Source: Noviherbaspirillum sp. Root189 (GTDB taxonomy: Bacteria > Pseudomonadota > Gammaproteobacteria > Burkholderiales > Burkholderiaceae_D). From it: a stretch of 64,000 nt of DNA. The stretch covers positions 62,001-126,000 of the forward strand of contig NZ_LMHZ01000089.1 of NCBI RefSeq assembly GCF_001428545.1. Reading direction: 5' to 3'. This document shows, piece by piece, positions 9,701 to 27,032 of the stretch. The notes beneath the pieces are model-generated. The model saw nothing but the letters and a program-made list of their open reading frames with translations. It made no database searches and was not told the origin of the DNA. How positions within the stretch are numbered: the first letter of the stretch is position 1; every line of letters begins with the position of its first letter. The translations under genes were made by a program, and so were the position numbers.

Positions 9701-9835
9701 CTGGGCCTTGCGATCTTCGGCGGCCTGATCGTCAGCCAGATCCTGACCTTGTTTACCACGCCGGTGATTTATCTGGCTTTCGACAGGTTAGGTCGGCGCT
9801 GGACCGGGCGCGGATCCAATGAGGTAGCCGCGTGA
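6755..9835 (+). CDS. mdtB: RND multidrug efflux transporter subunit MdtB
   Basis: Inner-membrane proton-driven pump, 1026 residues, twelve membrane helices and two large periplasmic loops. Family signatures include [19 protein letters not shown] at the start, [22 protein letters not shown], the TM4 proton-relay segment [15 protein letters not shown], and the C-terminal [15 protein letters not shown] and [19 protein letters not shown] repeats. In the MdtABC system MdtB and MdtC form a heterotrimer (two B, one C), and the MdtB-like chain here is followed directly by an MdtC-like chain with a 4-base overlap. Substrates in E. coli include novobiocin and bile salts; here they are not predictable. 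Confidence 0.93.
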
Positions 9836-12800
9836 ACCTGTCCGAGCCATTCGTCCGGCGGCCGGTCGCCACCATCCTGCTGACCATCGGCATTGCGCTG
9901 GCGGGCATTGCGGCATTCTTTGTACTGCCAGTCTCACCGCTGCCGCAGGTGGAATATCCGTCGATCACGGTCAGCGCTTCGCTGCCCGGCGCGAGTCCCG
10001 ACACCATGGCGACCAGCGTTGCCACGCCGCTGGAACGAAGATTGGGTGTGATCGCCGGCGTCAATGAAATGACGTCGAACAGCAGTACCGGCTCGACGCG
10101 CATCAGCCTGCAGTTTGAACTCAACCGCAAGATCGATGCGGCGGCGCGTGAAGTCCAGGCAGCCATCAATGCCTCACGCGTAGACCTGCCCGCCACGCTG
10201 AAAAGCAATCCGACCTATCGCAAGGTCAGTCCCTCAGCATCGCCGGTCATCATTCTTGCGCTGACGTCACGCACCCGTTCGCCGGGCCAGATTTACGACG
10301 AGGTATCCAACCTGGTACAACAGAAACTTGCACAGGTGCCGGGTGTGGGCGACGTCGAACTCGGCGGCGGTTCGCTGCCGGCGGTGCGCGTGGAACTGCT
10401 GCCTTTTGCACTGAATAATTACGGCGTGAGCATGGAAGATGTGCGCGCCGCGATCCAGGCCAGTACGGCCAACCGGCCGAAGGGCGCAATCGAAGGCGAC
10501 GAGCGCCGCCTGCAGATCTATTCACAGGTCGGCATGGAAAATGGCGGCAAGAGCGCGTCGGACTATCGCGGACTGGTGGTGGCGTGGCGCAATGGCGCTG
10601 CGGTGCGATTGCAGGATGTCGCCAATGTGGTCGATGGCGTTGAAGACAGTCGCACCATCGGCCTCTTCAACGGGCAGCCGGCGGTGATCGTGCTGGTCAC
10701 CCAGCAGCCGGGAGCCAATGTCATCAAAACGGTTGACGGCGTACGTGCACTGCTGCCGGAACTGCAGGAGCAGTTGCCGCAGGACGTGCGTTTGCAAGTG
10801 GCGTCGGACCGCACCAACTCGATCCGCTCCTCGCTGCATGAAATTGAATTCACCCTGATCATTTCCGTGGTCCTGGTGGTCTTGGTGGTCAGCGCCTTCC
10901 TGCGCAGTTTCCGCGCGACGATCGTGCCGGCGGTTGCGACTGTGGTATCGCTGCTGGCTACTTTCGGCATCATGTACATGATGGGCTTCAGCCTTAACAA
11001 CCTGAGCCTGATGGCCCTGACCGTGGCCACCGGCTTTGTGGTCGACGATGCCATCGTGGTGCTGGAAAATACCAGCCGGCATATCGAGGCCGGCATGGAT
11101 CGATTCAAGGCGGCCCTGCTGGGCGCGCGCGAAGTCGGCTTCACGGTGCTGTCGATCAGCGTCTCGCTGGTTGCGGTTTTTATCCCCTTGTTATTTATGG
11201 GTGGCCAGATTGGTCGTCTGTTTCGCGAGTTTGCCGTAACCTTGTCGGCGGCGGTGATGATCTCGATGGTCATCTCGCTCACCACTACGCCGATGATGTG
11301 TGCATGGTTGCTGAAGCGAACGCCGGAAGGTGCGAAGACCAAGCCGCCGGGCCGGATTGCGCGCTTCTTTGAGCGCGGTTTCGACATGATGCATCGCAAC
11401 TATGCGCGCAGCCTCGATTGGGCGCTGGATAACCGTTGGCTGGTCATGTTCATCCTGGTGGTTGTCGTAGGGATGAACGTCTACCTCTTCATTGCCGCGC
11501 CCAAAGGCTTCTTTCCGCAACAGGACACCGGCCAGATCAACGGGGGCCTGCGCGCGGATCGCAGCATTTCTTTCCAGGCCATGCAGGGCAAGCTGCAACA
11601 GTTGGTCGACATCATCCAGCGTGATCCCGCAGTCGTCACCGTGGTGGGCTTTACTGGCGGACGGCGCGCGGGCGGCGGGTTCATGTTTATTAACCTCAAG
11701 CCGCGCTCCGAACGGTCTGAAGGCGGACAGGCAGTGATCGCACGCTTGCGTCCGCAACTAGCGCAGGTCACCGGCATCAGTCTTTTTCTGAACACCGTGC
11801 AAGACTTGCGCATGGGCGGGCGCCAGACCAATTCCACCTATCAGTACAGCCTGAAAAGCGACAGTAGTGCCGAACTGAAAACCTGGGCACTCAAGCTGGC
11901 AGAGGCGATGAAGCAGCAACCGGAATTGACCGATGTGGACACCGATCAGCAGGACAATGCGGTGGAAACCTTTGTCGAGGTCGACCGCACCACGGCCGCG
12001 CGCCTTGGTCTGACTTCGCGTGATGTCGACAACGCGCTGTACAACGCTTTTGGTCAACGGCAGGTAGCCACGGTTTACGGCGAGTTGAATCAGTACCACG
12101 TTGTCATGGAAGTCTCCCCGCAATTTGCGAAAAGTCCGGAAGCGCTGAAGGATATTTATGTGCCTGTGCGCAGCAGCACTAGTACCAGTAGTACCAGTAC
12201 AAGTACAGGCACGAACACGACAGCAAGCAGCACAACACGTACGGCCACATCCGCGACCACGAGTGCTACCGGGACAAGCTCTTCGGTCATCAATCCCGGC
12301 TTGCGCGATCAGTCCAGCGGTCAGGCGCTGAGCACGGCATCCACCACCATGGTGCCGCTCGCCGGCATTGCGCGTTTTACCGAAAGGCCTGCGCCTGCAT
12401 CGATCAGTCATGAAGATGCGGAACTCGAAACCACGATCTCCTTCAACCTGGCCGATGGCGCCACGCTCAGCGAAGCCCAGCAGGCGGTCAAGGCCGCCGA
12501 GGCGGCGATCAGCATGCCGACCAACGTACGCGGAAGTTTTGCCGGTGCCGCGCGCAGCTTCCAGGAGTCGCAAAACCAGCAGCCCTTGCTCATCGCTGCC
12601 GCACTGGTGGTGATTTATATCGTGCTCGGCATCCTGTATGAAAGCCTGATCCATCCGATCACGGTATTGTCGACCTTGCCGTCGGCCGGTGTCGGTGCCG
12701 TGCTGGCCCTGCTGATGTTCAAGATGGAGTTTTCCATTATCGCGTTGATTGGCGTGTTCCTGCTGATTGGCATCGTCAAAAAGAATGCGATTCTGATCAT

Positions 12801-13125
12801 CGACTTTGCCCTTGAAGCGGAGCGTTCGCGCGGCCTCAATGCGGTGGAAGCGGTACGCGAAGCATGCCTCTTGCGCTTCCGTCCGATCCTCATGACAACG
12901 CTGGCAGCCGCGCTTGGTGCGCTGCCGCTCGCCATTGGCTTCGGTGAAGGCTCGGAGCTGCGCAGGCCGCTCGGCGTGGCGATCATTGGCGGCCTGATCG
13001 CCAGCCAGGTACTGACCCTGTTGACCACACCCGTCGTCTACATCCTGATTGATAAACTCCGGCGGCGCAGTCCGGCCGAACGCGAGCTGCGCCGGATGGA
13101 TGACGCCACACCTTCTTCGACATGA
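9832..13125 (+). CDS. mdtC: RND multidrug efflux transporter subunit MdtC with a Ser/Thr-rich insertion
   Basis: Second RND chain, 1097 residues, about 70 longer than usual. It has the same landmarks as Mdt[20 protein letters not shown], the TM4 segment [16 protein letters not shown], and [19 protein letters not shown] near the end. The excess length lies around residues 781-840: a run of Ser and Thr (781-821) followed by a short unmatched stretch, inserted in the second periplasmic loop just before the conserved [15 protein letters not shown] segment. The DNA there is repetitive (AGTACCAGT units). The rest of the frame is intact, so the protein is probably functional. It overlaps both neighbours by 4 bases. 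Confidence 0.93.
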
Positions 13126-14570
13126 ATGCATCCATGATTCCAGCAAGTCGTATTGCCATTGCAGCAGCCATCGTCCTCCAGCTCGCCGGATGCGCGGTCG
13201 GCCCTGTCTATGAGCGGCCGGCGACGCCGCTGCCGGCCCAGTTCAAGGAAGCGCCCGGATGGGTGCCAGCGACGCCAGCCGACGCAGTCGACCGCGGCGC
13301 GTGGTGGTCGCTGTTCAATGATCCTGTGTTGAACCAGCTTGCGGCCGAGGTCGACGTGTCAAACCAGAACGTGGCCGCTGCCGCTGCTGCATATGAGCAG
13401 GCGCGCGCGCTGGTGCGGGAGCAGCGCGCGGCATTGTTCCCCATCGTGTCGTTGGATGGAGGCGGTTCGCGCTCCGGCGGAAGCCGCAGCGGCACCAGCA
13501 GCACCAGCAGCGCCACCACCACAGCGTCCGGTGTGCGTACCTCCAATTCCTATCAGGTCGGTATCGGCGGCAGTTGGGAACCGGATGTCTGGGGAAGGTT
13601 GCGTGCCTCCGTGAGCAGCGCGGGCGCCAGCGCAGAAGCGAGTGCCGCCGACCTTGCATCGGCGCGCCTCGCGGCACAGGGCGAACTGGCCGCCAATTAT
13701 TTTGCGCTGCGGCTGACTGACTTGCAGACCGCTTTGCTGCGCGACTCGATTGCCGGCTACCAGCGTGTCCTGCAGATTACGCGCAATCGCTACGCCGCTG
13801 GCATTGCGCCGAAGACGGATGTGCTGCAGTCGGAAACCCAGCTTGCCAACGCGCAGGCAGACGAGGTGGGCCTGGTCCGTCAGCGTGCGCAGCTCGAACA
13901 CGCGATTGCGGTGCTGATCGGTAAACTGCCGTCTGATTTCGCGCTCGCACCGACGCCCTGGAAAAATGTTGTTCCGGATGTGCCGGCTGTCCTGCCATCA
14001 ACACTGCTGCAGCGCCGGCCGGACATTGCTGGCGCGGAGCGTCGTGTGGCAGCAGCCAACGAACAGATTGGTATTGCCCGGACCGGCTATTTCCCCAGCG
14101 TTGGTCTTAACGCGTCGTATGGAACCGCTGCCAGCACGGTCAGCAATCTGTTTAACGCCTCCACCATGCTGTGGTCTCTGGGCCTGTCGGCGGTGCAGAC
14201 GATATTCGACGCCGGCGCGACAGGAGCCCGGATCGACGCCGTGCGTGCCGCGCATGAACAAGCGGTCGCACGTTATCGGCAGACCGTGCTGACTGCCTTC
14301 CAGGATGTGGAAGACCAACTCTCGGCGTCGCAGGTACTCGCACGCCAGGTCGAGCTGCGCCAGCAGGCATCGACTGCCGCTGACCAGGCTGAAGCGCAAA
14401 TGCTGAATCGATACCGGGCGGGGCAGGTGAACTATACCGAGGTCGTCAATGCGCAAGTCACCGCACTCAATGCTCGCCGTTCACTGGCGCAGGCGCAGGC
14501 CGACCGGCAGATGGCGGCAGTGGCGTTAATTCAGGCGTTGGGTGGTGGCTGGACACAGGCGCAATCATAG
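13122..14570 (+). CDS. Outer-membrane efflux lipoprotein (NodT/OprM family)
   Basis: Outer-membrane channel of the tripartite pump, 482 residues. The N-terminus is a lipoprotein signal with lipobox LAGC (Cys at residue 24), followed by the family start CAVGPVYERPATPLP. Two outer-membrane-efflux-protein repeats follow, with the conserved segments YFALRLTDLQTALLRDS, NRYAAGIAPKTDVLQSETQLANAQ, LLQRRPDIAGAERRVAAANEQIGIARTGYFPS (its key RRPD motif is visible) and RYRAGQVNYTEVVNAQ. Residues about 109-132 are a Gly/Ser/Thr-rich stretch in the first repeat that is longer than usual. The ATG overlaps the mdtC stop, making this the last gene of the four-gene operon. Confidence 0.92.
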   Translation: MNASMIPASRIAIAAAIVLQLAGCAVGPVYERPATPLPAQFKEAPGWVPATPADAVDRGAWWSLFNDPVLNQLAAEVDVSNQNVAAAAAAYEQARALVREQRAALFPIVSLDGGGSRSGGSRSGTSSTSSATTTASGVRTSNSYQVGIGGSWEPDVWGRLRASVSSAGASAEASAADLASARLAAQGELAANYFALRLTDLQTALLRDSIAGYQRVLQITRNRYAAGIAPKTDVLQSETQLANAQADEVGLVRQRAQLEHAIAVLIGKLPSDFALAPTPWKNVVPDVPAVLPSTLLQRRPDIAGAERRVAAANEQIGIARTGYFPSVGLNASYGTAASTVSNLFNASTMLWSLGLSAVQTIFDAGATGARIDAVRAAHEQAVARYRQTVLTAFQDVEDQLSASQVLARQVELRQQASTAADQAEAQMLNRYRAGQVNYTEVVNAQVTALNARRSLAQAQADRQMAAVALIQALGGGWTQAQS

Positions 14571-15854: not shown

Positions 15855-16721
15855 ATGACAAAATCTGCGACCGGACATCTGGCAAAAGTAATTCAGAACA
15901 ACCGTGAAAATTTACTTGCCGGATGGCTGGAAGGCCTGCTTTCCCGCTCCGTACGCCGTGACAAGGCCGCCGAGAAAGATGTGGCTGAACAAGCCACGCA
16001 GTTCCTGGACATCCTGCAAACAACGGTGCACAAAGGACAAAACTACGACATCGATACAGGAGCCTGGAGCGATGTACGCAGCCTGCTGTCAGGAATTTCC
16101 ATGGCACGAGTACGCCAGGGCTTTTCGCCGATTGAAACCGCGAATTTCGTTTTTTCCCTGAAAGAACCGCTGTTTGCCTTGCTGCGCAAAGAACTGGACA
16201 ACGATCCGGACGCGCTGATCGAAGAAACCGCGCAGACAGGTACGCTGTTTGACCGCCTCGGCCTGTTCACCATCGAAGAGTTTCAAAAAGGGCGCGAACA
16301 GATCATCCTCAAGCAGCAACAGGAGTTGATGGAACTGTCGACGCCGGTCGTCCAGTTATGGAAAGACGTGCTCGCACTGCCGCTGATCGGCACGCTCGAC
16401 AGCGCACGCACGCAGGTAGTGATGGAAAGCCTGCTGCAAAAGATCGTCGATACCGGCGCCTCCATCGCCATTATCGATATTACCGGTGTGCCCACAGTCG
16501 ATACGCTGGTTGCTCAGCATCTGCTCAAGACCGTCGCCGCCGCGCGCCTGATGGGTGCAGACTGCATCATCAGCGGCATCCGGCCACAAATCGCCCAGAC
16601 CATCGTGCACCTTGGCGTTAACCTGGAAGACGTCATCACCAAGGCAACCCTGGCCGATGCATTCGTCGTTGCATTGAAGCGCACCGGCGCGACGATCACC
16701 CACGCAAACCAAGAGCAGTGA
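15855..16721 (+). CDS. rsbR: RsbR-type stressosome co-antagonist (sensor domain plus STAS)
   Basis: Scaffold and sensor subunit of a stressosome, 288 residues. Residues 1-155 are a helical N-terminal sensor domain (RsbRD-type, ending KGREQIILKQQQELMELS). Residues about 165-275 are a STAS domain: STPVVQLWKDVLALPLIGTLD, then the phosphorylation loop DITGVPTVDTLVAQHL and GADCIISGIRPQIAQTIVHLG. Thr210, Thr214 and Thr217 lie in that loop, where the B. subtilis RsbR threonines are phosphorylated by RsbT. First gene of a six-gene operon; rsbS follows after 7 bases. What the sensor domain detects cannot be seen. Confidence 0.9.
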   Translation: MTKSATGHLAKVIQNNRENLLAGWLEGLLSRSVRRDKAAEKDVAEQATQFLDILQTTVHKGQNYDIDTGAWSDVRSLLSGISMARVRQGFSPIETANFVFSLKEPLFALLRKELDNDPDALIEETAQTGTLFDRLGLFTIEEFQKGREQIILKQQQELMELSTPVVQLWKDVLALPLIGTLDSARTQVVMESLLQKIVDTGASIAIIDITGVPTVDTLVAQHLLKTVAAARLMGADCIISGIRPQIAQTIVHLGVNLEDVITKATLADAFVVALKRTGATITHANQEQ

Positions 16722-16728
16722 GGCACTA

Positions 16729-17085
16729 ATGGATCGTATCCCCATCTTGAGGATGGGTCGCCTGTTGCTGGTGACCATCCAGGTCGACATGCACGACCGA
16801 CTGGCCATGACGCTTCAGGATGACCTGACTGCCCGGATCGTCAAGGACCGTGCGAACGGCGTTCTGATCGACATTTCGGCACTTGATATCGTCGACTCGT
16901 TTATCGGTCGCATGATCAGCAACACGGCGGCGATGGCCAAGATTCTTGATGCGCGCACGGTGGTGGTCGGCATGCAGCCGGCAGTCGCCATCACGCTGGT
17001 GGAACTTGGACTGACGCTGGAAGGCGTGAGTACCGCCTTGAACGTCGAGCAGGGAATCAAATTGTTGCAGCGCACCGCGGCATAA
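16729..17085 (+). CDS. rsbS: RsbS-type STAS antagonist
   Basis: Single STAS-domain protein of 118 residues, the core antagonist of the stressosome. The start IPILRMGRLLLVTIQVDMHDR and the loop DISALDIVDSFIGRMI match RsbS; Ser57 in that loop is the expected RsbT phosphorylation site (Ser59 in B. subtilis). Phosphorylated RsbS releases RsbT so that it can act on downstream partners. The gene sits between rsbR and rsbT, the standard R-S-T order. Confidence 0.92.
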   Translation: MDRIPILRMGRLLLVTIQVDMHDRLAMTLQDDLTARIVKDRANGVLIDISALDIVDSFIGRMISNTAAMAKILDARTVVVGMQPAVAITLVELGLTLEGVSTALNVEQGIKLLQRTAA

Positions 17086-17124
17086 GCCGGCGCGGCCACG
17101 ATTTGATGATCCCGTAACCGGAAC

Positions 17125-17562
17125 ATGCTCGTAAAGGCAGATGTGTTGAGTATAAATAACGCTGACAAGCTGGTGCTCCCGTTGCGCACGGATGAAGATG
17201 TCGTCCGCTTGCGGCAGGCGGTGCGCGAGGCACTGATTTCAATCGGCTTCAGCCTGATCGACCAGACCAAAATGGTGACGGCGGCCAGCGAGCTCGCGCG
17301 CAATACGCTACGCTATGGCGGCGGCGGGGAATCGCATATATTGAAGGTAACCAATGGTGGGCGGCGCGGACTGAACCTGTCGTTCATTGATCATGGTCCC
17401 GGGATTTCGGATGTTGCGCTGGCGCTGAAGGATGGCTATACGACGGGCGGCGGTCTTGGACTCGGACTGAGCGGAGCAAAGCGCCTCTCCGATGAATTTG
17501 AAATTATTACCGCTCCTGGCGAGGGCACTACCGTAAGCATTACCAAATGGAAACCATTCTAA
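17125..17562 (+). CDS. rsbT: RsbT-type serine kinase (HATPase)
   Basis: GHKL-type ATP-binding serine/threonine kinase of 145 residues. The N box is SELARNTLRYGGGG, the G1 box FIDHGPGI and the G2 box GGGLGLGLSGAKRL, all intact. RsbT phosphorylates RsbR and RsbS and, once released, activates a partner. In Firmicutes that partner is the phosphatase RsbU; here the next gene encodes a HATPase-PP2C fusion and two histidine kinases follow, so the output is probably different. The 3' end overlaps the next gene by 16 bases. Confidence 0.92.
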   Translation: MLVKADVLSINNADKLVLPLRTDEDVVRLRQAVREALISIGFSLIDQTKMVTAASELARNTLRYGGGGESHILKVTNGGRRGLNLSFIDHGPGISDVALALKDGYTTGGGLGLGLSGAKRLSDEFEIITAPGEGTTVSITKWKPF

Positions 17563-18566
17563 GCACTGCGGGCCGCCAGAAAGTCTATGCGATCGAAGAG
17601 GCCGCAGAAATCGCCGGAGTACGACGAGGTAGTGCAGAACTTGCCAGACTGCAGTCCTTTGACGAAACCGCCGCCGGCAAGGTGGCGATCGCCGTGACGG
17701 AAGCGGCGACCAATATCGTCAAGCACGCTACACGGGGGCAGATCATTCTGCGCCCGGTGGAGCAAGGCAATGCGTCGGGAATCGAAGTCATTGCGCTGGA
17801 CGCAGGACGCGGCATGACTAACGTCGCATTGCACATGAAGGATGGCGTGTCGACCGCCGGCAGCTATGGGGTCGGACTGGGTGCGATGGTGCGCCTTGCG
17901 GATGAATTCGACATCTATTCGCAAGAGGACAAAGGCACGGTAATCTACATGAAGTTCTGGAACGTCCCGCCGCCCCCCGCTTCCGGCACCTGGCAGACAG
18001 GGGTAGTCTGCCTGCCGCTTCCCAGCGAAGAAGTTTGCGGTGACGCCTGGGCTATTTGTAGCGATGCGACGCTTGCCACTGTGATGGTTGCCGACGGCTT
18101 GGGTCATGGTCCCGACGCGGCGCGTGCATCGGAAGCGGCGATCCGCCTCATCGGCAGCCATCCCGAATTGCATCCGGAAGCCGCGATCTGGGAAAGCCAT
18201 GCTTCCCTGCGCGCTACCCGAGGTGCCGCAGTGGCGGTAGCGAGGCTGGATACACTGTCGGAGGAAATGCACTTCTCCGGCGTCGGAAACATCGCGGCGG
18301 TGAGCTTCCAGGGAGGCGGCAAGCGGCAACTCATGTCCCACAATGGCATCGTCGGCAGCAATATGCGCAAAGTGCAGGAGTTCGTCTTGCCGTGGACTTC
18401 GGGCGCGATGCTGATCATGCATTCCGACGGATTGGGCACTCGCTGGAACCTCGATCATTATCCCGGCCTGGAAGCAGCACATCCGTCCTTGATCGCCGCT
18501 GTCCTGTACCGTGATTTTTGTCGACAAAGGGATGACGTGACAGTGCTTGTCATCCGTGAACAGTAA
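17547..18566 (+). CDS. HATPase-PP2C (SpoIIE/RsbX-like) fusion phosphatase
   Basis: A 339-residue two-domain protein. Residues 1-135 form a second RsbT-like HATPase domain (N box VTEAATNIVKHATRG, G1 ALDAGRGMTN, G2 STAGSYGVGLGAMVRLAD). Residues about 145-339 are a PP2C-type phosphatase resembling RsbX, with metal-binding Asp in MVADGLGHGPDAA and the C-terminal SDGLGTRW and RDDVTVLVIRE motifs. RsbX resets the stressosome by dephosphorylating RsbR/RsbS. Fusing a kinase-like and a phosphatase domain in one chain suggests a bifunctional switch, which is inference. Start overlaps rsbT by 16 bases. Confidence 0.88.
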   Translation: METILSTAGRQKVYAIEEAAEIAGVRRGSAELARLQSFDETAAGKVAIAVTEAATNIVKHATRGQIILRPVEQGNASGIEVIALDAGRGMTNVALHMKDGVSTAGSYGVGLGAMVRLADEFDIYSQEDKGTVIYMKFWNVPPPPASGTWQTGVVCLPLPSEEVCGDAWAICSDATLATVMVADGLGHGPDAARASEAAIRLIGSHPELHPEAAIWESHASLRATRGAAVAVARLDTLSEEMHFSGVGNIAAVSFQGGGKRQLMSHNGIVGSNMRKVQEFVLPWTSGAMLIMHSDGLGTRWNLDHYPGLEAAHPSLIAAVLYRDFCRQRDDVTVLVIREQ

Positions 18567-18583
18567 ACAAGCAAAGCACTGAC

Positions 18584-20422
18584 ATGAGCATGCGCATACT
18601 CACCATCGTGATCGAAACCGAACAGGACGTGGTCGCTGCGCGCCAGCGCGCCCGTCAGGTTGCGGCGGTCTGCGGCTTCTCGGCACAAGACCAGGTGCGC
18701 ATTGCCACCGCCGTCTCGGAACTGGCCCGTAACGTGTACAACTATGCGTCGCGTGGCCGCGTGGAATTCTCCATTGAAGGCAAGACCTCGCCACAAGTGC
18801 TCGTCGTCCGTATCGAAGATAGGGGACCCGGTATTGGCAACCTGGACGAAGTGTTGTCCGGCAAATACCAGTCGCCGACAGGCATGGGTGTCGGCATTAT
18901 GGGCGCACGCCGCCTGATGGATCAGTTCGACATCGTCACCGGCAAGGGAACGGGCACCACCATCACCCTCAAGAAGCTGCTGTCGGCAGCGGCGCCTACC
19001 CTGACGCCGCAATCCGTTGGCGCCATCGGTGCGGAACTGGCGTCGGCACAGCCGGTGGCAACGCTGGGTGAAGTGCAGCAGCAAAATCGCGAACTCTTGA
19101 TTACGCTGGAAGAGCTGAAGGCCAGGCAGGAAGAACTGGTCCAACTCACCCGTGAACTGGAAGATACCAATCGCGGCGTGGTGGCGCTGTATGCCGAACT
19201 CGATGAAAAGGCGGATCACCTGCGCCGTGCCGATGAAATGAAGTCACGCTTCCTGTCCAACATGAGCCATGAGTTCAGGACGCCGCTAAGTTCGATTCGC
19301 GGCCTGTCCAAGCTCCTGCTCGACCGTATTGACGGCGACCTGACGGAAGAGCAGGAAAAGCAGGTCAACTTCATTCTCAAGGGCGCCGAGTCGCTATCGG
19401 AACTCGTCAATGACTTGCTGGATCTCGCCAAGATCGAGGCCGGCAAAACGGATGTGCGGCCAACCAAGTTTGATGTTGCCGAACTGTTCAGTGCGCTGCG
19501 CGGCATGTTGCGTCCGTTGCTGGTCACCGAATCGGTCCAGCTGATTTTCGAGGAGCCCGATTTCCAGTCCACGATGTACACGGACGAGGCGAAGGTTTCG
19601 CAAATCTTGCGCAACTTTATTTCCAACGCACTGAAATTCACCGATTCGGGTGAAGTCAGAGTGTCCGCAAGCCATTTGCCTGAAGAGAGGGCGATCCGGT
19701 TTTCCGTAATCGATACCGGCCTGGGTATTGCACCGGAGCACCAGCAGATCATCTTCGAGGAGTTCGGACAAGTCGAGAACCGCTTGCAACATAAGATCAA
19801 GGGCACCGGACTGGGTCTGCCGCTTTGTCGCAAGCTGGCTGATTTGTTGGGCGGGCGCGTCGAACTTTCCAGTACACTTGATAAAGGTTCTACCTTCTCC
19901 GCGGTAATTCCGGTTACTCTTCCTAGTGAAGATACTGACGGCGAAGCTGAAATCCTGGCCGGCTCGGAGAATGGAATCGCTGACGAGCGCCTACCGGTAC
20001 TCGTTATCGAAGACCAGCAACCGGTCCGGATCATGTATGAGAAATTCCTGCGCGGTACTGCTTTCAGGGCGATTCCGGCACGTAGCTTGTGGGAAGCTGA
20101 CGAAATCTGGGCCTCGATTTCCCCGGTGGCGATCATTCTGGATATCAATCTGAATGGCGAAGATACCTGGCGGTGGCTGATGGATACGAAGAATGATGGC
20201 GTGCGCGGTCGCACGCCGATCATTGTGGCGACGGAAGTTGATGATCCCGCGAAAGCCTTTGCGCTGGGAGCGGATGCTTTCTTCGTCAAGCCGGTGGTAT
20301 GCGACGAATTGGTCGCACAGCTTACGCGATTGGTGTCGGACGAGATGGGTAACAGGAGCGTGGCGGATTCGTCGGGGGGCGACGCATTGAACCAAACTGC
20401 ACGCGGTCCGCGTGCGCATTAA
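18584..20422 (+). CDS. Hybrid histidine kinase with N-terminal RsbT-like domain
   Basis: A 612-residue protein. Residues 1-130 are a third RsbT-like HATPase domain (SELARNVYNYASRG, RIEDRGPGIGN, GMGVGIMGARRL). A coiled coil (about 160-215) leads to the HisKA domain with phospho-acceptor His229 in SNMSHEFRTPLSSIRG, then a kinase HATPase domain (about 335-445, ending KGTGLGLPLCRKLADLLGGRVEL), and a C-terminal receiver domain (about 475-590) with acceptor Asp520 in IILDINLNGED. The N-terminal domain ties it to the RsbR/S stressosome, while the rest feeds a phosphorelay. It overlaps the next ORF's upstream extension. No DNA-binding domain is present. Confidence 0.92.
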   Translation: MSMRILTIVIETEQDVVAARQRARQVAAVCGFSAQDQVRIATAVSELARNVYNYASRGRVEFSIEGKTSPQVLVVRIEDRGPGIGNLDEVLSGKYQSPTGMGVGIMGARRLMDQFDIVTGKGTGTTITLKKLLSAAAPTLTPQSVGAIGAELASAQPVATLGEVQQQNRELLITLEELKARQEELVQLTRELEDTNRGVVALYAELDEKADHLRRADEMKSRFLSNMSHEFRTPLSSIRGLSKLLLDRIDGDLTEEQEKQVNFILKGAESLSELVNDLLDLAKIEAGKTDVRPTKFDVAELFSALRGMLRPLLVTESVQLIFEEPDFQSTMYTDEAKVSQILRNFISNALKFTDSGEVRVSASHLPEERAIRFSVIDTGLGIAPEHQQIIFEEFGQVENRLQHKIKGTGLGLPLCRKLADLLGGRVELSSTLDKGSTFSAVIPVTLPSEDTDGEAEILAGSENGIADERLPVLVIEDQQPVRIMYEKFLRGTAFRAIPARSLWEADEIWASISPVAIILDINLNGEDTWRWLMDTKNDGVRGRTPIIVATEVDDPAKAFALGADAFFVKPVVCDELVAQLTRLVSDEMGNRSVADSSGGDALNQTARGPRAH

Positions 20423-20432
20423 GAGCAAGATC

Positions 20433-21965
20433 ATGTTTTCCGAAGACGATCACCTGATATTGAATGTTGACGATACGGACGCGGCGCGCTATGCGAAGTC
20501 GCGCATCCTGTCGCGTGCAGGATTCAAGGTGATCGAAGCGCCGACCGGTGGGGAAGCGCTGCGCAGGGCAAAGAGCGATAAGCCTGTACTGGTACTGCTG
20601 GATGTGAAACTGCCGGATATCAATGGTTTCGAAGTCTGCCGTCGCCTCAAGGAAGATGAAGAGACCCGCAACATTCTGGTGCTGCAAACATCGGCTTCCT
20701 ACATTGGCACCGGCGATAAAATCAGAGCCCTGGAGGGCGGCGCCGATAACTACCTGTTCGAGCCCATCGAACCGGAAGAACTCGTCGCCAACGTCCGGGC
20801 CTTATTGCGACTTGGAAGGGTAGAGCGCGAGTTGCGGGAAGTCGACCGCCGCAAGGATGAATTCCTTGCCGTGCTTGCGCACGAATTGCGCAATCCGCTC
20901 GGACCGATCCGCAATGCAGTCGAACTGCTGCAACAGTCCGGAGCGCATGAATCTGGCAAGCATGAGAGCGCGCATCAGACCATTCTGCGCCAGACCGAAC
21001 ATATGGTCAGGCTGGTCGATGATTTGCTGGACGTGGCGCGGATATCGCAAGGTAAACTCGCATTACAGAAGCAACCTGTCGAGCTCAGAACGGTCATCGA
21101 CTCCGCGATTGAAACGGCACGCCCCATGATTGAAAGCCGCCACCACACGCTGGCGACATCACTGCCTTCCGACGAAATCTGGGTCGATGGGGATAGCGTA
21201 CGTCTTTCGCAGACCATCTGCAATCTGTTAAACAATGCAGCCAAGTTTACCCGCCCGCATGGGGAAATTACCCTCAGTACGGAGCTGCGTGATGGCCAGG
21301 TGCGTATCCGGGTGAAGGATAATGGCATCGGCATTCCCTCGGAAAGCCTTGACGCCATTTTCTCGCTCTTTACGCAAGCCGGCCATGCCGCCGACCGGGT
21401 GCAGGATGGCCTGGGTATTGGACTCTCGCTTTCCAAGACTTTAGTTGAACTGCATAGTGGCTCGATCCGCGCACTGAGCGGTGGCATGGGTCTGGGAAGC
21501 GAGTTTGAAATCACGCTGCCAGTATTGGCGCCCGGCCCGCAGAAAGTGTCAAGTCAGAACAACAGCAACCCGGCGCCCGCAGGCAAGTACCGCATTTTGG
21601 TGGTCGATGATAACCGCGAAGCCGCCGATATCATTTGCGAACTGCTGAGGATGGACGGACATGAAGTTGCGTCAGCGCACAACGGCGCCGATGCGCTGAT
21701 TGCCGTGCAGCGTCACCAGCCTGACATTGTCATTCTTGATATCGGCTTGCCGGACATGGACGGTACGACGGTCGCTGGCAAGATACGCACGATTCCCGGA
21801 ATGGAGGATGCTTCTCTTATCGCGCTCACCGGTTATGGCAATTCTTCGGACATCGAGCGCACCAAGGCGGCAGGCTTCGATGACCATCTTGTCAAGCCGG
21901 CGAAGTTTGCCAATCTGCGAGAGTCGATCCGCCGGTTACGCGAAGGTGCTGTCGCCAAGCGATAG
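20433..21965 (+). CDS. Hybrid histidine kinase, REC-HisKA-HATPase-REC
   Basis: A 510-residue kinase with receiver domains at both ends. The first REC (1-125) has Asp57 in LLDVKLPDINGFEVCRRL. HisKA has His150 in AVLAHELRNPLGPIRNAVELL. The HATPase domain has ICNLLNNAAKFTRP, VKDNGIGI and DGLGIGLSLSKTLVELH. The second REC has Asp436 in VILDIGLPDMDG and the Lys in DDHLVKPAKF. The frame opens at 20412 inside the previous gene, but the ATG at 20433 begins the receiver domain and has AAGAG upstream. It is the last gene of the operon and lacks a DNA-binding output domain, so the final response regulator must be elsewhere. Confidence 0.9.
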   Translation: MFSEDDHLILNVDDTDAARYAKSRILSRAGFKVIEAPTGGEALRRAKSDKPVLVLLDVKLPDINGFEVCRRLKEDEETRNILVLQTSASYIGTGDKIRALEGGADNYLFEPIEPEELVANVRALLRLGRVERELREVDRRKDEFLAVLAHELRNPLGPIRNAVELLQQSGAHESGKHESAHQTILRQTEHMVRLVDDLLDVARISQGKLALQKQPVELRTVIDSAIETARPMIESRHHTLATSLPSDEIWVDGDSVRLSQTICNLLNNAAKFTRPHGEITLSTELRDGQVRIRVKDNGIGIPSESLDAIFSLFTQAGHAADRVQDGLGIGLSLSKTLVELHSGSIRALSGGMGLGSEFEITLPVLAPGPQKVSSQNNSNPAPAGKYRILVVDDNREAADIICELLRMDGHEVASAHNGADALIAVQRHQPDIVILDIGLPDMDGTTVAGKIRTIPGMEDASLIALTGYGNSSDIERTKAAGFDDHLVKPAKFANLRESIRRLREGAVAKR

Positions 21966-23410: not shown

Positions 23411-24685
23411 TCACCTACCCTTCAGCTTGTTCGATCGTTCAAGCAGGAGCTCACGCTCCTGCAGGTTGCGCGCGAGACTCGCGGCGCGCTCAAATTCCTG
23501 TTGTGCTTCTTCCTTGCGGCCGAGTTTTTCCAGCAGGTCGCCGCGCACGCTGGGCAGCCATTGATAGCCTTGCAAACTTTTGTCCTTGCTTAACCGATCC
23601 ACGATCTCCAGCGCGGCTGCCGGCCCAGCCGCCATGCTGACGGCGACGGCGCGATTGAGCTCGACCACCGGGGAGGGCGAGACGATGGCAAGCATGCCGT
23701 AGATGTCGGCAATGCGATGCCAGTCCGTCTCCGCGGCGGTATGCGCTTGCGCATGGCAGGCCGCGATAGCCGCCTGCAAAACATAAGGACCGGCCGTACC
23801 GCCCAGGTTTTCCGCACGTTGCAGCGCCGTCAGGCCACGACGGATCAGTAAATGATCCCAGCGTGAGCGATCCTGGTCGAGCAGCAACACCGGTCGCCCG
23901 CTAGTGCCGACCCTGGCCTTGGCGCGCGAAGCCTGCAGTTCCATCAGGGCAATCAGTCCATGCACTTCCGGCTCCTGCGGCGCCAGTTCAGCCAGCATGC
24001 GGCCGAGGCGCAACGCTTCTTCAATCAGGGTGGGGCGCATCCAGTCTTCGCCTGCGGTTGCGGTGTAGCCCTCGTTAAAGATCAGGTAGACCACCTCCAG
24101 CACTGTGGCAAGACGCTCCGCGAGCGCATCGCCCGGCGGCAGCTCGAACGGCACGCGTGCCTCGTTCAGTGTGCGTTTTGCACGCACGATACGTTGTGCA
24201 ATCGTCGGTTCCGCAACCAGAAAAGCGCGGGCAATCTCGTGCGTGGTCAGTCCGCCCAGCAGCTTCAGGGTCAGCGCGACCCTCGCTTCGGATGACAGCA
24301 CCGGATGGCAGGCGGTAAAGATCAGGCGCAGCAGATCGTCACCGATCTGATCATTCCTCACGACGTCGAGCGTGTCGACAAAGTCAGGCACGATCAAAGC
24401 CTCCTGCGCTTCGAGGTCATGGCCCATCTGCTCGAGTTTTTCGCCCAACAGCTTGTCACGGCGAAGCCGGTCGAGGGCACGGTTCTTCGCCGTCGCCATC
24501 AGCCAGGCGCCCGGATTGTCCGGCACACCATCGAGCGGCCAATGTTCAAGCGCCGACACAAGCGCATCCTGGGCCAGCTCTTCCGCCAGTCCGATGTCAC
24601 GCACCATGCGTGCGATACCGGCCACGATCTTCGCGGATTCGATGCGCCAGACGGCCGAAATCGCATGATGAGTGGCCGAATGCAT
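23411..24685 (-). CDS. ECF sigma factor with C-terminal TPR-like domain (ECF42 type)
   Basis: A 424-residue RNA polymerase sigma factor. Region 2 (about 10-80) includes DIGLAEELAQDALVSALEHWP and NPGAWLMATAKNRALDRLRR; region 4 (about 115-180) includes LTLKLLGGLTTHEIARAFLVAEPTIAQRIVRAKRTL. The long C-terminal half with LELNRAVAV-like VELNRAVAVSMAAGP and alpha-helical repeats is the mark of ECF42 sigmas, which lie next to YciI/DGPF genes as here. The frame extends upstream to 24859, but the ATG at 24685 starts the domain and shares a base with the VOC stop (TGATG), so coupling supports it. Last gene of a leftward operon. No anti-sigma factor is visible. Confidence 0.92.
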   Translation of the reverse strand: MHSATHHAISAVWRIESAKIVAGIARMVRDIGLAEELAQDALVSALEHWPLDGVPDNPGAWLMATAKNRALDRLRRDKLLGEKLEQMGHDLEAQEALIVPDFVDTLDVVRNDQIGDDLLRLIFTACHPVLSSEARVALTLKLLGGLTTHEIARAFLVAEPTIAQRIVRAKRTLNEARVPFELPPGDALAERLATVLEVVYLIFNEGYTATAGEDWMRPTLIEEALRLGRMLAELAPQEPEVHGLIALMELQASRAKARVGTSGRPVLLLDQDRSRWDHLLIRRGLTALQRAENLGGTAGPYVLQAAIAACHAQAHTAAETDWHRIADIYGMLAIVSPSPVVELNRAVAVSMAAGPAAALEIVDRLSKDKSLQGYQWLPSVRGDLLEKLGRKEEAQQEFERAASLARNLQERELLLERSNKLKGR

Positions 24686-25092
24686 CAGCCTTGACCCGCA
24701 GCGGATGGATCCATATACATCAGTTCCCAGATATGACCGTCCGGGTCCTCGAACCCATGGCTGTACATGAAGCCGTAATCCTGCGGCGCGTTGGGCGTCT
24801 TGCCCCCGGCAGCAACTGCTTTCGCAACCAGTTCGTCGACCCGTTCGCGGCTTTCGCAAGACAGGCAGGTCAGGACTTCGGTTACCTTGCTTGCATCCGC
24901 GATCGGCTTCTTTGTGAAGGTCTGGAAGAAGCTTTCGACCAGCAGCATCACGTAAATGTCATCGGAAATGACCATGCAGGCGGCTTGCTCATTCGTGAAT
25001 TGCGCATTGAATGTATAACCGAGTGACGCGAAGAATTCTTTGGTGCGTTCCAGGTTCTTGACCGGAAGATTGACGAAAATTTGCTTGTTCAT
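24685..25092 (-). CDS. VOC family protein (glyoxalase/bleomycin resistance-like)
   Basis: A 135-residue VOC protein of the type often annotated as extradiol dioxygenase or glyoxalase. It starts NKQIFVNLPVKNLERTKEFFASLGYTFN and ends GFMYSHGFEDPDGHIWELMYMDP, the classic C-terminal metal-site segment with H and E. The middle contains ISDDIYVMLLVESFFQTFTKK. The gene overlaps the sigma-factor start by one base and follows the YciI gene after 136 bases. In ECF42 loci such small proteins belong to the regulon, but their reactions are unknown. Confidence 0.88.
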   Translation of the reverse strand: MNKQIFVNLPVKNLERTKEFFASLGYTFNAQFTNEQAACMVISDDIYVMLLVESFFQTFTKKPIADASKVTEVLTCLSCESRERVDELVAKAVAAGGKTPNAPQDYGFMYSHGFEDPDGHIWELMYMDPSAAGQG

Positions 25093-25228
25093 GATGCTCC
25101 TTTACATAATGAGATTCGGTTTCCTGGTTCATTGCGGCGACCGGTAGGACGACGCTTTGCGCCATGAAATTTTCCTGAGGAAGGTCGTGTATTTGCCGAG
25201 GGGTGATGGATCGGGGGCAGTCGCCTGC

Positions 25229-25651
25229 CTACTGCGCGGCGACTGCGCCGGTACCGATGGAGCGCATCTGTTCGAGGCTTTCACTCGGCGGAAAATCATC
25301 CAGTTCGAACATCTGGCGTACCTCAATTTGCGCATCGACGTCCTCGCCGTGCGGAGCGGGAAAACGGCGTGTCCATTCGAGCGCTTCATCGCGTGAACGT
25401 ACCTGAATGATCGTGTAACCGGCAACCAACTCCTTGGCTTCGGCAAAAGGTCCGTCAATGACCGTGCGCTTGCCGCCGGAATAGTTGATGCGCCATCCCT
25501 TGGCGCTCGCCTGTAGTCCCGATCCATCGAGGAGCACGCCAGCCTTGGCTAGCTGCGCATGGTAATCGGCCATGGCGGCAATCAGTTTTTCGTCAGGCAT
25601 CACGCCGGCTTCCGACTGTGCGGACGCTTTTACAATAATCATGTATCGCAT
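25229..25651 (-). CDS. YciI/DGPF-domain protein 1
   Basis: A 140-residue YciI-family (DGPF) protein. The ATG at 25651 follows AAGGAGATCGAA, an excellent ribosome site, so the longer frame from 25729 is rejected. It starts MRYMIIVKAS and contains the family motif TVIDGPFAEAKELVAGYTIIQVRSRDEALEW, followed by EDVDAQIEVRQMFE. The fold is a ferredoxin-like dimer; enzymatic role unknown. Second gene of the leftward unit with the ECF42 sigma factor, the usual partner of DGPF proteins. Confidence 0.88.
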   Translation of the reverse strand: MRYMIIVKASAQSEAGVMPDEKLIAAMADYHAQLAKAGVLLDGSGLQASAKGWRINYSGGKRTVIDGPFAEAKELVAGYTIIQVRSRDEALEWTRRFPAPHGEDVDAQIEVRQMFELDDFPPSESLEQMRSIGTGAVAAQ

Positions 25652-25805
25652 TTCGATCTCCTTGATAGTGGGTAGCAAACACAGGTCAGGGAAGCGGTGA
25701 CGCCCATTTTTCCTGGTTTCTAACTCCACGACGATCGAGCCGACATGAAATCGACAAAGCCGGCGAAAATTTTTTATTTTTCCTATTTAACTTGTAACAA
25801 GCGCA

Positions 25806-26162
25806 TCAGGCAACATAACAGGGCGCAAGACTGCGGACCTCGACCGTACACCATTCGGCGGCCGGGCATTCGGCGGCAATTGCCAGCGCCTCCTCCCGCG
25901 TCTGGCAATTCACCATGAAAAAGCCTCCCACCATTTCCTTTGCTTCGGCAAACGGTCCATCGACGACTTTGGACTTCCCGCCCTCTACCCGAACGCGGGA
26001 GGCATGGTTGTGGGAGGCAAGCGATTCGGCGGAAAGCAGCAATCCTCGGGCTTGCAAGTCGGCGGCAAAAGACATCATGCGGTCGTAGACCGCGCGGCCT
26101 TCGGTTTCGGTGCGAGAGGCGCGTTGGTCGTTGGGTTCAATCATCAGGAGCATATAAGCCAT
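25806..26162 (-). CDS. YciI/DGPF-domain protein 2
   Basis: A 118-residue YciI-family protein starting MAYMLLMIEPNDQRA at an ATG preceded by CAGGAAA. The DGPF motif is in KVVDGPFAEAKEMVGGFFMVNCQTREEALAIAAECP, followed by EWCTVEVRSLAPC. A frame extension to 26216 lacks a ribosome site. It is the first gene of the leftward YciI-YciI-VOC-sigma unit; the 154-bp gap to the next gene is AT-rich (25741-25800) and could hold an extra promoter recognised by the ECF sigma itself. Confidence 0.88.
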   Translation of the reverse strand: MAYMLLMIEPNDQRASRTETEGRAVYDRMMSFAADLQARGLLLSAESLASHNHASRVRVEGGKSKVVDGPFAEAKEMVGGFFMVNCQTREEALAIAAECPAAEWCTVEVRSLAPCYVA

Positions 26163-27032
26163 GGATGGTTTCCTGTTTGTTCGATGAGGTGATGAAAAGC
26201 GTATTCTATGCGCCAATGACCTGAATCCCGGAAGACATTTAACGATTTGTCATCCCATTACCAACATGAGGATGGCGCTGTTTGCCGATGCGCTACGCCT
26301 GGCGGACCCGTGCCATTGCGTCGAGCACGCTTGCGCGCACTGCGTGTACGCAGCGCCGCTGAATACTTCTAGAAGAAATTGGGGAATTGAGATGTGGAAC
26401 GATCGCCGGAAGCGGGCTGTTCGCTCCAGCGCAAGGGATCTCGGACGGCAGGGGAGCCATCATTGGTATCGAGCCGGTACCGACCGTTACCGCGCAATGG
26501 AGCCCAGTAGAAATCTGGGTACGGCCGGTACAGGGACCTCCACCGGCCGTACAAAAACGCTATCAGGCGGCGGCGTATTTGGCTAGTACAACGGCAAGAA
26601 ACGACACGGCGACTGCGGCTGCAGTGGCACGAAACATAATGGCGGCGAGGTCACGAATAAGCATGGCGATGAAGGAAAAGAGTGGCGGTGCAGTTGGAAC
26701 GATAGCACTCGGATTTCCACTCGTAAACATAGGTTGCAGGAATGTGTGCCCGTCGCAACATATTCTTTGCGGCATGTCATTGTTCGTTATTCTTTCGTCG
26801 TCGTTTGGGGCTTGAGGCAGGAGAGAAATCAATACACAAACGCTCTCGCAAAAGTTTTGCATGCGAGAACGGGTGGGGCGAACATGCCCTGGCTTATAAG
26901 ACGTCCGCCTGCATTTGAAAAGAATTTTTTGACTGCCCAAACGGGGCGCAAAGCGCTGAACTTCGATCCCTGCGATGAGGAAAAATTAGAAAATTGGCTG
27001 GCGATGCATAACAACGAGAGCCTTCAACTTGA
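26163..27032. other. Gene-poor stretch, no supported gene
   Basis: About 870 bases upstream of the YciI operon. Several ORFs of 60-140 codons exist on both strands, but none shows a recognisable domain with a ribosome site. The best small candidate is a reverse frame at 26563-26730 (55 residues, one strongly hydrophobic segment MLIRDLAAIMFRATAAAVAV) without a clear ribosome site. The region ends at a sigma-factor scrap, so it may be decayed DNA. Confidence 0.4.

Follow-up and report, generated by a model that had tools for sequence, protein, structure and literature searches.

In Firmicutes, the RsbR-RsbS-RsbT module ends in RsbU, an anti-sigma factor, and sigma B. For many Gram-negative stressosomes, the question is by which route the complex reaches a two-component output. 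Here we address this question by using a 64,000-nucleotide stretch of DNA from Noviherbaspirillum sp. Root189 (contig NZ_LMHZ01000089.1, positions 62,001 to 126,000; hereafter the window), in which the genes of an RsbR-RsbS-RsbT-RsbX (RSTX) stressosome module form a putative operon with those of two hybrid histidine kinases.

The closest described systems come from a survey of species with globin-coupled RsbR (Heinz 2022; PMC9237108). Their RSTX modules are accompanied by eleven types of downstream modules, including HisKA/REC phosphorelays, and some of these carry an RsbU_N domain. Most of the output proteins considered in that survey are without RsbU_N. A phosphorelay output, as suggested here, has already been proposed there for the types Dogia and Ruegeria. 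In Vibrio vulnificus and its relatives (PMC9237108; PMC10014275), R-S-T-X is likewise followed by a histidine kinase/receiver protein with no sigma factor, and deletions of the V. vulnificus RSTX and D1 genes give similar phenotypes (PMC10014275). RsbT is known to activate RsbU by making its linker rigid, and this mechanism has been extended to kinases with RsbU_N (PMC12143880).

Association of the kinases with the stressosome genes

The six genes of the locus all lie on the plus strand. Pfam matches and PDB alignments identify RsbR (15855–16721), with an RsbRD_N sensor domain and a STAS domain, and the STAS scaffold protein RsbS (16729–17085). RsbT (17125–17562) is a stand-alone HATPase switch kinase as judged by Pfam, its ATP-site residues, and profiles. 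The following protein, TX (17547–18566), joins an RsbT-like domain (residues ∼10–139) to an RsbX-type PPM phosphatase (∼152–337; Pfam HATPase_c_2 and SpoIIE, with PDB matches). The first kinase, THK (18584–20422; Pfam HATPase_c_2, HisKA, HATPase, and REC), consists of an RsbT-like domain (∼1–133), a signature helix (E191–L206), HisKA with H229, a HATPase domain, and a receiver with D520. The second, HK2 (20412–21965; Pfam REC, HisKA, HATPase, and REC), begins with a receiver that lacks the conserved lysine (REC1, D64) and continues with HisKA (H157), HATPase, and a second receiver (REC2, D443). Both proteins have the HisKA histidine, HATPase motifs, and receiver aspartate of hybrid kinases. 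An earlier note on this DNA had described rsbR, rsbS, and rsbT in order, then a HATPase-PP2C fusion and two hybrid kinases, tightly packed with overlaps, and these open reading frames (ORFs) confirm that description. The intergenic spacings from rsbR to hk2 are 7, 39, −16, 17, and −11 bp, so that the six genes of the putative operon are closely packed, with two overlaps.

Sequence comparison supports the conclusion that this stressosome is linked with histidine kinases rather than with an RsbU/RsbV/RsbW/sigma-B cascade. An RsbS profile matched 12 of 300 genomes from the order (counting that of the window), 92 of 245 family genomes, and 38 of 398 genomes from the phylum, although some of the weaker matches could represent other STAS domains. 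A search of these 245 family genomes with the helix-plus-HisKA segment of THK detected the corresponding kinase (HK) in 81, all within the 92 RsbS-positive genomes, and in none of the 153 genomes without an RsbS match. A single contig carries both RsbS and HK in 80 of these 81 genomes. The RsbS matches of these 81 genomes have E values of 2.8e-54 or better, whereas those of the 11 RsbS-positive, HK-negative genomes are 9.5e-38 or weaker; loci from five of the 11 contain R-S-T-X (L121–L123; L numbers denote fetched loci) or other kinases (L124, L126). In the window's genome (6.15 Mb), the second-best match to the helix-HisKA query is 42% identical.

Gene order was read in the window and in 56 other loci (51 stretches from RsbS positives and five others). 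These loci were hand-picked for diversity among the positives, so the following counts do not estimate frequencies. The order RsbR-RsbS-RsbT-TX-HK is present in 39 of the 56 loci and in the window, and thus the conserved gene order that the earlier note proposed to look for in related genomes does exist. A second protein bearing REC1 comes next in the window and in 37 of the 39 loci, the other two (L026, L032) being cut by the contig end. One contig begins at HK (L033), and L140 has a variant, HisKA_2-type kinase that falls below the score cut. Other layouts occur in 15 loci (L028, L029, L034, L121–L124, L126, L139, L141–L146), which were excluded from the HK tables before counting. Together, the restriction of HK to genomes with an RsbS match and the recurrent R-S-T-TX-HK order argue for stressosome-to-kinase wiring.

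For the T domain of THK, the closest relatives with a name come from Noviherbaspirillum. Among the matches listed in a search of plasmids, the cluster is carried by Deinococcus radiodurans MP1 and two other Deinococcus plasmids, by Caballeronia, Variovorax, and Sphingomonas plasmids, and also by two actinobacteria (L171, L172). RsbT-like genes in general were found on 105 of 72,556 plasmid records, most commonly those of Phaeobacter (58) and Deinococcus (17). A decayed-looking copy on Paraburkholderia aromaticivorans pBN1 (L167, 4538–7953) retains S, T, and TX, but its kinase appears to be split in two and RsbR has no match within the fetched stretch. Its “response regulator” is probably the C-terminal piece of that kinase, because a HATPase piece precedes the receiver; the two pieces were searched separately, as annotated. 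Two loci with other stressosome layouts have two consecutive stand-alone RsbT-like genes before RsbX (L124, 4374–5197; L142, 4365–5221).

At the residue level, RsbR and RsbS of the window match solved stressosome proteins in the PDB. The aligned PDB variants are presumably Listeria proteins. In RsbR, S183 occupies the position of the first phosphorylation site, which is changed in these variants and is likewise serine in Vibrio 7o0i_B, and T217 aligns with what we take to be the second RsbR phosphorylation site. RsbS (E 2e-31 against 6jhk) has S57, within DSFI, at the position of the RsbS phosphoserine, where the variant 9o4r has alanine. The seven residues of the Bergerat ATP site are intact in RsbT, which is 40.5% identical to an RsbT homologue encoded ahead of PP2C-STAS-rsbW-sigB on a Lysinibacillus plasmid. 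The PP2C domain of TX is of the RsbX type (3zt9, E 7e-13; RsbX 3w40, E 1e-9). The locus therefore contains an RsbR with sensor and STAS domains, an RsbS with its serine, an adjoining RsbT, and a neighboring RsbX-type PPM phosphatase. By analogy with other RSTX modules, its RsbR, RsbS, and RsbT would be expected to form a megadalton complex.

A promoter search yielded sigma-70-like sites at no more than chance expectation, and the region upstream of the operon is poorly conserved relative to that of Noviherbaspirillum. Also upstream, a gene for a resistance-nodulation-division-type efflux pump is followed by an outer-membrane channel gene (9832–14570, identified by eye from translations).

RsbT-type domains and the signature helix

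Each cluster encodes three RsbT-type paralogues: the free RsbT and the domains fused to the phosphatase and to the kinase. The earlier note had recognized the HATPase domains of the two fusion proteins but missed this relationship. A profile of kinase-fused T domains gives 122 bits for the Lysinibacillus RsbT, which adjoins PP2C-STAS-RsbW-SigB, versus 20 bits for RsbW of the same operon, and on these scores we rejected the idea that the HATPase domains are of the anti-sigma type. In a tree of 144 T domains, in which many forks are unresolved, the free, phosphatase-fused, and kinase-fused domains are nearly separate (4 label changes, compared with a mean of 65.8 after shuffling).

All seven ATP-site residues are intact in 61 of 61 free and 47 of 47 phosphatase-fused T domains, but in only 29 of 36 kinase-fused copies. 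The seven broken copies all belong to one nine-member clade of the HK tree (support 100/99). The T domains of the actinobacterial HKs in L171 and L172, which stand outside the 36 and were assessed by eye and by profile, are also degenerate. The kinase activity of RsbT is reportedly dispensable for activating its target phosphatase, and the loss of ATP-site residues from kinase-fused copies is consistent with a role in binding for this reason. Nine HKs of the 44-row tree (L024–L027, L127–L131) have no T domain at all, which corresponds to a single change (support 95/98). Because T-fused forms are widely spread, this change was probably a loss rather than a gain, although the root of the tree is not fixed. 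These natural variants, in which the T domain of the kinase is intact, a pseudokinase, or missing, constitute a ready-made mutant series.

Between its T domain and HisKA, THK carries the helix ELEDTNRGVVALYAEL (residues 191–206). With small changes allowed, all 41 cluster HKs contain the helix, with or without a fused T domain, and none of the 55 other HK-bearing ORFs in the fetched loci does. The pattern used for this contrast was built from the cluster HKs themselves, and HK2-type proteins from these loci are among the 55. The helix is retained both where the T domain has lost its ATP site and in all nine HKs without a T domain. In four of the latter, it starts at ORF residue 19, 29, and 46, and at residue 88 from the earliest start in the fourth. 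The two actinobacterial T-kinases have the helix doubled with a step of 18 residues (L171, 5977–7638; L172, 5881–7644). A Streptomyces phosphatase encoded after R-S-T-TX has a similar helix element before its GAF-SpoIIE part. In L174, the N-terminus of the Streptomyces phosphatase resembles a T domain only weakly (E 0.003 in a search space of 1000) and is not claimed as one. No RsbU_N domain was matched by Pfam in THK or HK2 at an E value of 0.001. The helix string, searched in four spellings, did not occur in the literature searched.

Output of the proposed relay and alternative explanations

The first receiver of the second protein has a constant character. In the window and 37 loci, REC1 keeps its aspartate in 38 of 38 cases and lacks the conserved lysine in 38 of 38; E117 occupies the lysine position in HK2 of the window. 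The lysine is also missing from five plasmid-borne relatives inspected. The output behind REC1 varies: PAS-HK-REC or HK-REC, HK only (Deinococcus, L132–L134, L137), GAF-GGDEF (D. psychrotolerans), or a SpoIIE-type (PPM) phosphatase (Nonomuraea, Embleya). Because REC1 is constant while the output changes, we take it to be the acceptor of the THK phosphate. Phosphotransfer from THK to REC1 is thus a prediction from gene order and domain swaps.

The earlier note held that released RsbT acts on a phosphorelay that ends in a response regulator encoded elsewhere. Its first part agrees with the restriction of HK to RsbS-positive genomes, but the end-point regulator did not emerge. In the window and 37 loci, we surveyed ORFs of at least 90 amino acids up to 3.5 kb from the cluster, as far as the fetched stretches extend. 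No conserved flanking response regulator was found: no family is common to more than four of the 38 neighborhoods, those in three or four have no receiver-profile match, and no receiver-bearing family therefore recurs in at least three of the neighborhoods examined. Since no receiver family recurs, and since the second protein of some relatives itself carries GGDEF or PPM phosphatase domains, an end point elsewhere is not shown. Regulators that follow HK2 in single cases (a LuxR-type protein in L131, single receivers in L021 and L135, and a hybrid kinase in L108) are not recurrent. The listed start of the LuxR-type gene is probably too early, which would widen the true gap. In the genome of the window, the closest homologue of this regulator shares 46% identity with it and is located near another HATPase match.

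Likewise, the statement of the earlier note that no sigma or anti-sigma gene is present holds for the operon but not for its surroundings. An M20 peptidase gene neighbors the operon, and 1.4 kb downstream of the operon, on the minus strand, is a gene for an extracytoplasmic function (ECF)-type sigma factor with DUF6596 (23411–24859). No counterpart of this gene turned up in the stretches fetched from 67 other loci (L033 and L034 excluded), and it looks unrelated. Together with two neighboring YCII-domain genes and one glyoxalase-like gene, it occupies 23411–26216 on the strand opposite to the operon. RsbU, RsbV, RsbW, and sigma B are absent from the operon; no genome-wide search for sigma factors was made. 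Of 25 HATPase_c_2 (PF13581) matches in the genome, three are in the operon and 22 are in frames of 379–1161 amino acids, and the size of these frames leaves no RsbW-like stand-alone ATPase in view. The only other stand-alone STAS protein by PF01740 is a 99-amino-acid ORF. A sigma/anti-sigma pair, which the earlier note named as a finding that would speak against its proposal, was thus not encountered in the form of an RsbV/RsbW-like pair by these two profiles.

The model that best explains these data, to which we assign a probability of about 0.6, is that RsbT-type domains exert their effect on the helix and that the kinase in turn phosphorylates REC1 of HK2, with HK2 as the output. Its individual steps are inferred by homology and comparison. 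RsbR and RsbS would form a STAS scaffold that holds RsbT. Upon stress, RsbT would phosphorylate RsbS and RsbR and be released, and the RsbX domain of TX would reset them. The RsbT-like domain of THK, together with the conserved helix leading into the kinase, would serve as the input. RsbT-type domains probably act on this helix by binding rather than by phosphotransfer, as RsbT does on the RsbU linker, and in the T-less lineages free RsbT may do so in trans. THK would then autophosphorylate at H229 and pass the phosphate to the lysine-less first receiver of HK2, whose kinase and second receiver may relay the signal through protein contact or a regulator encoded elsewhere. A lack of phosphotransfer between RsbT and the kinase would not settle the matter, since binding is the way in which RsbT activates RsbU (PMC12143880).

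Several observations weigh against this model. An interaction between VvRsbT and VvD1 of V. vulnificus was not found (PMC9237108, section 10). Seven stressosome loci (L028, L124, L126, L141, L142, L144, L145) use kinases that lack both the T domain and the helix, so the device is not general. The helix is absent from one T-fused kinase, that of Paraburkholderia in L176, and five loci have a T-fused HK without the second protein (L136, L138, L140, L169, L176). The THK receiver may take the phosphate before HK2 does, and a receiver without the lysine may fail to switch normally. An AlphaFold model of THK, built with five sequences, has a single helix from residue 161 to 248, but its confidence is only moderate (mean predicted local distance difference test score 72.9, predicted template modeling score 0.41) and it is uninformative on contacts.

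Other explanations also merit consideration. The T domains of the phosphatase and the kinase might bind the RsbR/RsbS scaffold, such that the stressosome captures and releases both enzymes and free RsbT is only the trigger. The presence of three nearly separate paralogue classes per cluster is compatible with this arrangement, as are the retention of the domain in the seven kinase-fused copies without a complete ATP site, as expected of a binding module, and its fusion to a phosphatase whose expected substrates are on the scaffold. However, the nine HKs of one clade that have no T domain are encoded in otherwise whole clusters, which indicates that docking through this domain is not essential, and we judge the arrangement to be unlikely, although it deserves more weight than the explanations that follow. 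It has also been suggested for modules without RsbU_N that RsbT phosphorylates the kinase (PMC9237108), in which case RsbT would serve as a Ser/Thr kinase acting on a histidine kinase. The complete ATP sites of free RsbT are in keeping with this suggestion, but phosphorylation of RsbS and RsbR alone demands an intact site, and the known effector RsbU is activated through RsbT binding (PMC12143880). We therefore regard this route as improbable.

Still less credible is a sigma partner switch in which the T-like proteins serve as anti-sigma factors and the sigma factor is encoded at another site. Databases do label such proteins “anti-sigma regulatory factor,” and an ECF sigma gene is nearby. These points are countered by the preference of the kinase-fused profile for RsbT over RsbW, by the sizes of the other HATPase_c_2 frames and of the lone STAS ORF, and by the failure to find the ECF gene in the stretches fetched from 67 other loci. 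The link in this organism rests on comparative data, which leaves room for the kinases being co-transcribed neighbors with no functional tie to the stressosome. Given that HK occurs only with RsbS in the 245 genomes, that an RsbT-type domain is common to both, and that the order is conserved across phyla while flanking genes vary, this is the least probable of all the explanations considered.

A broader interpretation can be offered, albeit tentatively and with less than even odds. The RsbT domain would be a portable input module, of which duplicates, along with one signature helix, would have been fused in several phyla to output enzymes as well as to a feedback phosphatase. The stressosome would thereby control a histidine kinase (in Streptomyces possibly a phosphatase) directly, and the second protein would be a swappable output that is reached via the lysine-less receiver. 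Where the output-enzyme copy has become a pseudokinase or is missing, as in several lineages, the helix would be the receptor for free RsbT.

Comparison with known systems

The operon shares homologues of RsbR, RsbS, RsbT, and an RsbX-type phosphatase with the RsbRST-RsbU-RsbV-RsbW-SigB system of Bacillus subtilis, but it does not encode RsbU, RsbV, RsbW, or sigma B, and its output would run through histidine kinases. With RsbK-RsbY of Bacillus cereus, it shares a hybrid histidine kinase that would signal to a receiver carried by a distinct output protein, and the REC-PPM second protein of L171 and L172 has the layout of RsbY. RsbK is described as a membrane-bound hybrid kinase, and neither a stressosome nor an RsbT-like domain is mentioned in the available excerpt (PMC7522486).

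Relative to the survey of globin-coupled systems (PMC9237108), in which PP2C is a single-domain protein, the sensor here is RsbRD_N and RsbX is fused to an RsbT-like domain. The kinase has an RsbT-like domain and the signature helix, and RsbU_N was not detected. Vibrio D1 and D2 are thought to work on cyclic di-GMP, unlike the relay proposed above (PMC9237108; PMC10014275).

The nearest counterpart is the operon DR_RS15570–15595 on MP1 of D. radiodurans, which has six genes of identical type in identical order. Its HK2 lacks the C-terminal receiver that the window's HK2 possesses. The two kinase genes of this operon are probably DR_B0028 and DR_B0029, for which co-regulation with an operon encoding an anti-sigma-factor regulation system has been proposed (PMC6501615, citing Makarova 2001); DR_B0028 is among the proteins that increase after vacuum exposure, and the RsbT-like domain of the kinase is unmentioned in the excerpt (PMC6501615). 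In the literature searched, mainly titles and the openings of abstracts, we found no description of an RsbT-like domain fused to such kinases.

Wiring of a stressosome to a kinase is already in print and is not new in kind (PMC9237108). What is new are the three RsbT-type paralogues per cluster, the signature helix, and the lysine-less first receiver with its varied outputs (kinase, GGDEF, phosphatase). Because the gene order is shared by the laboratory strain D. radiodurans R1, the module can readily be tested in that organism. The locus thus belongs to a real, widespread, and conserved stressosome-to-kinase module, which is new as a defined variant of the known systems rather than as an idea.

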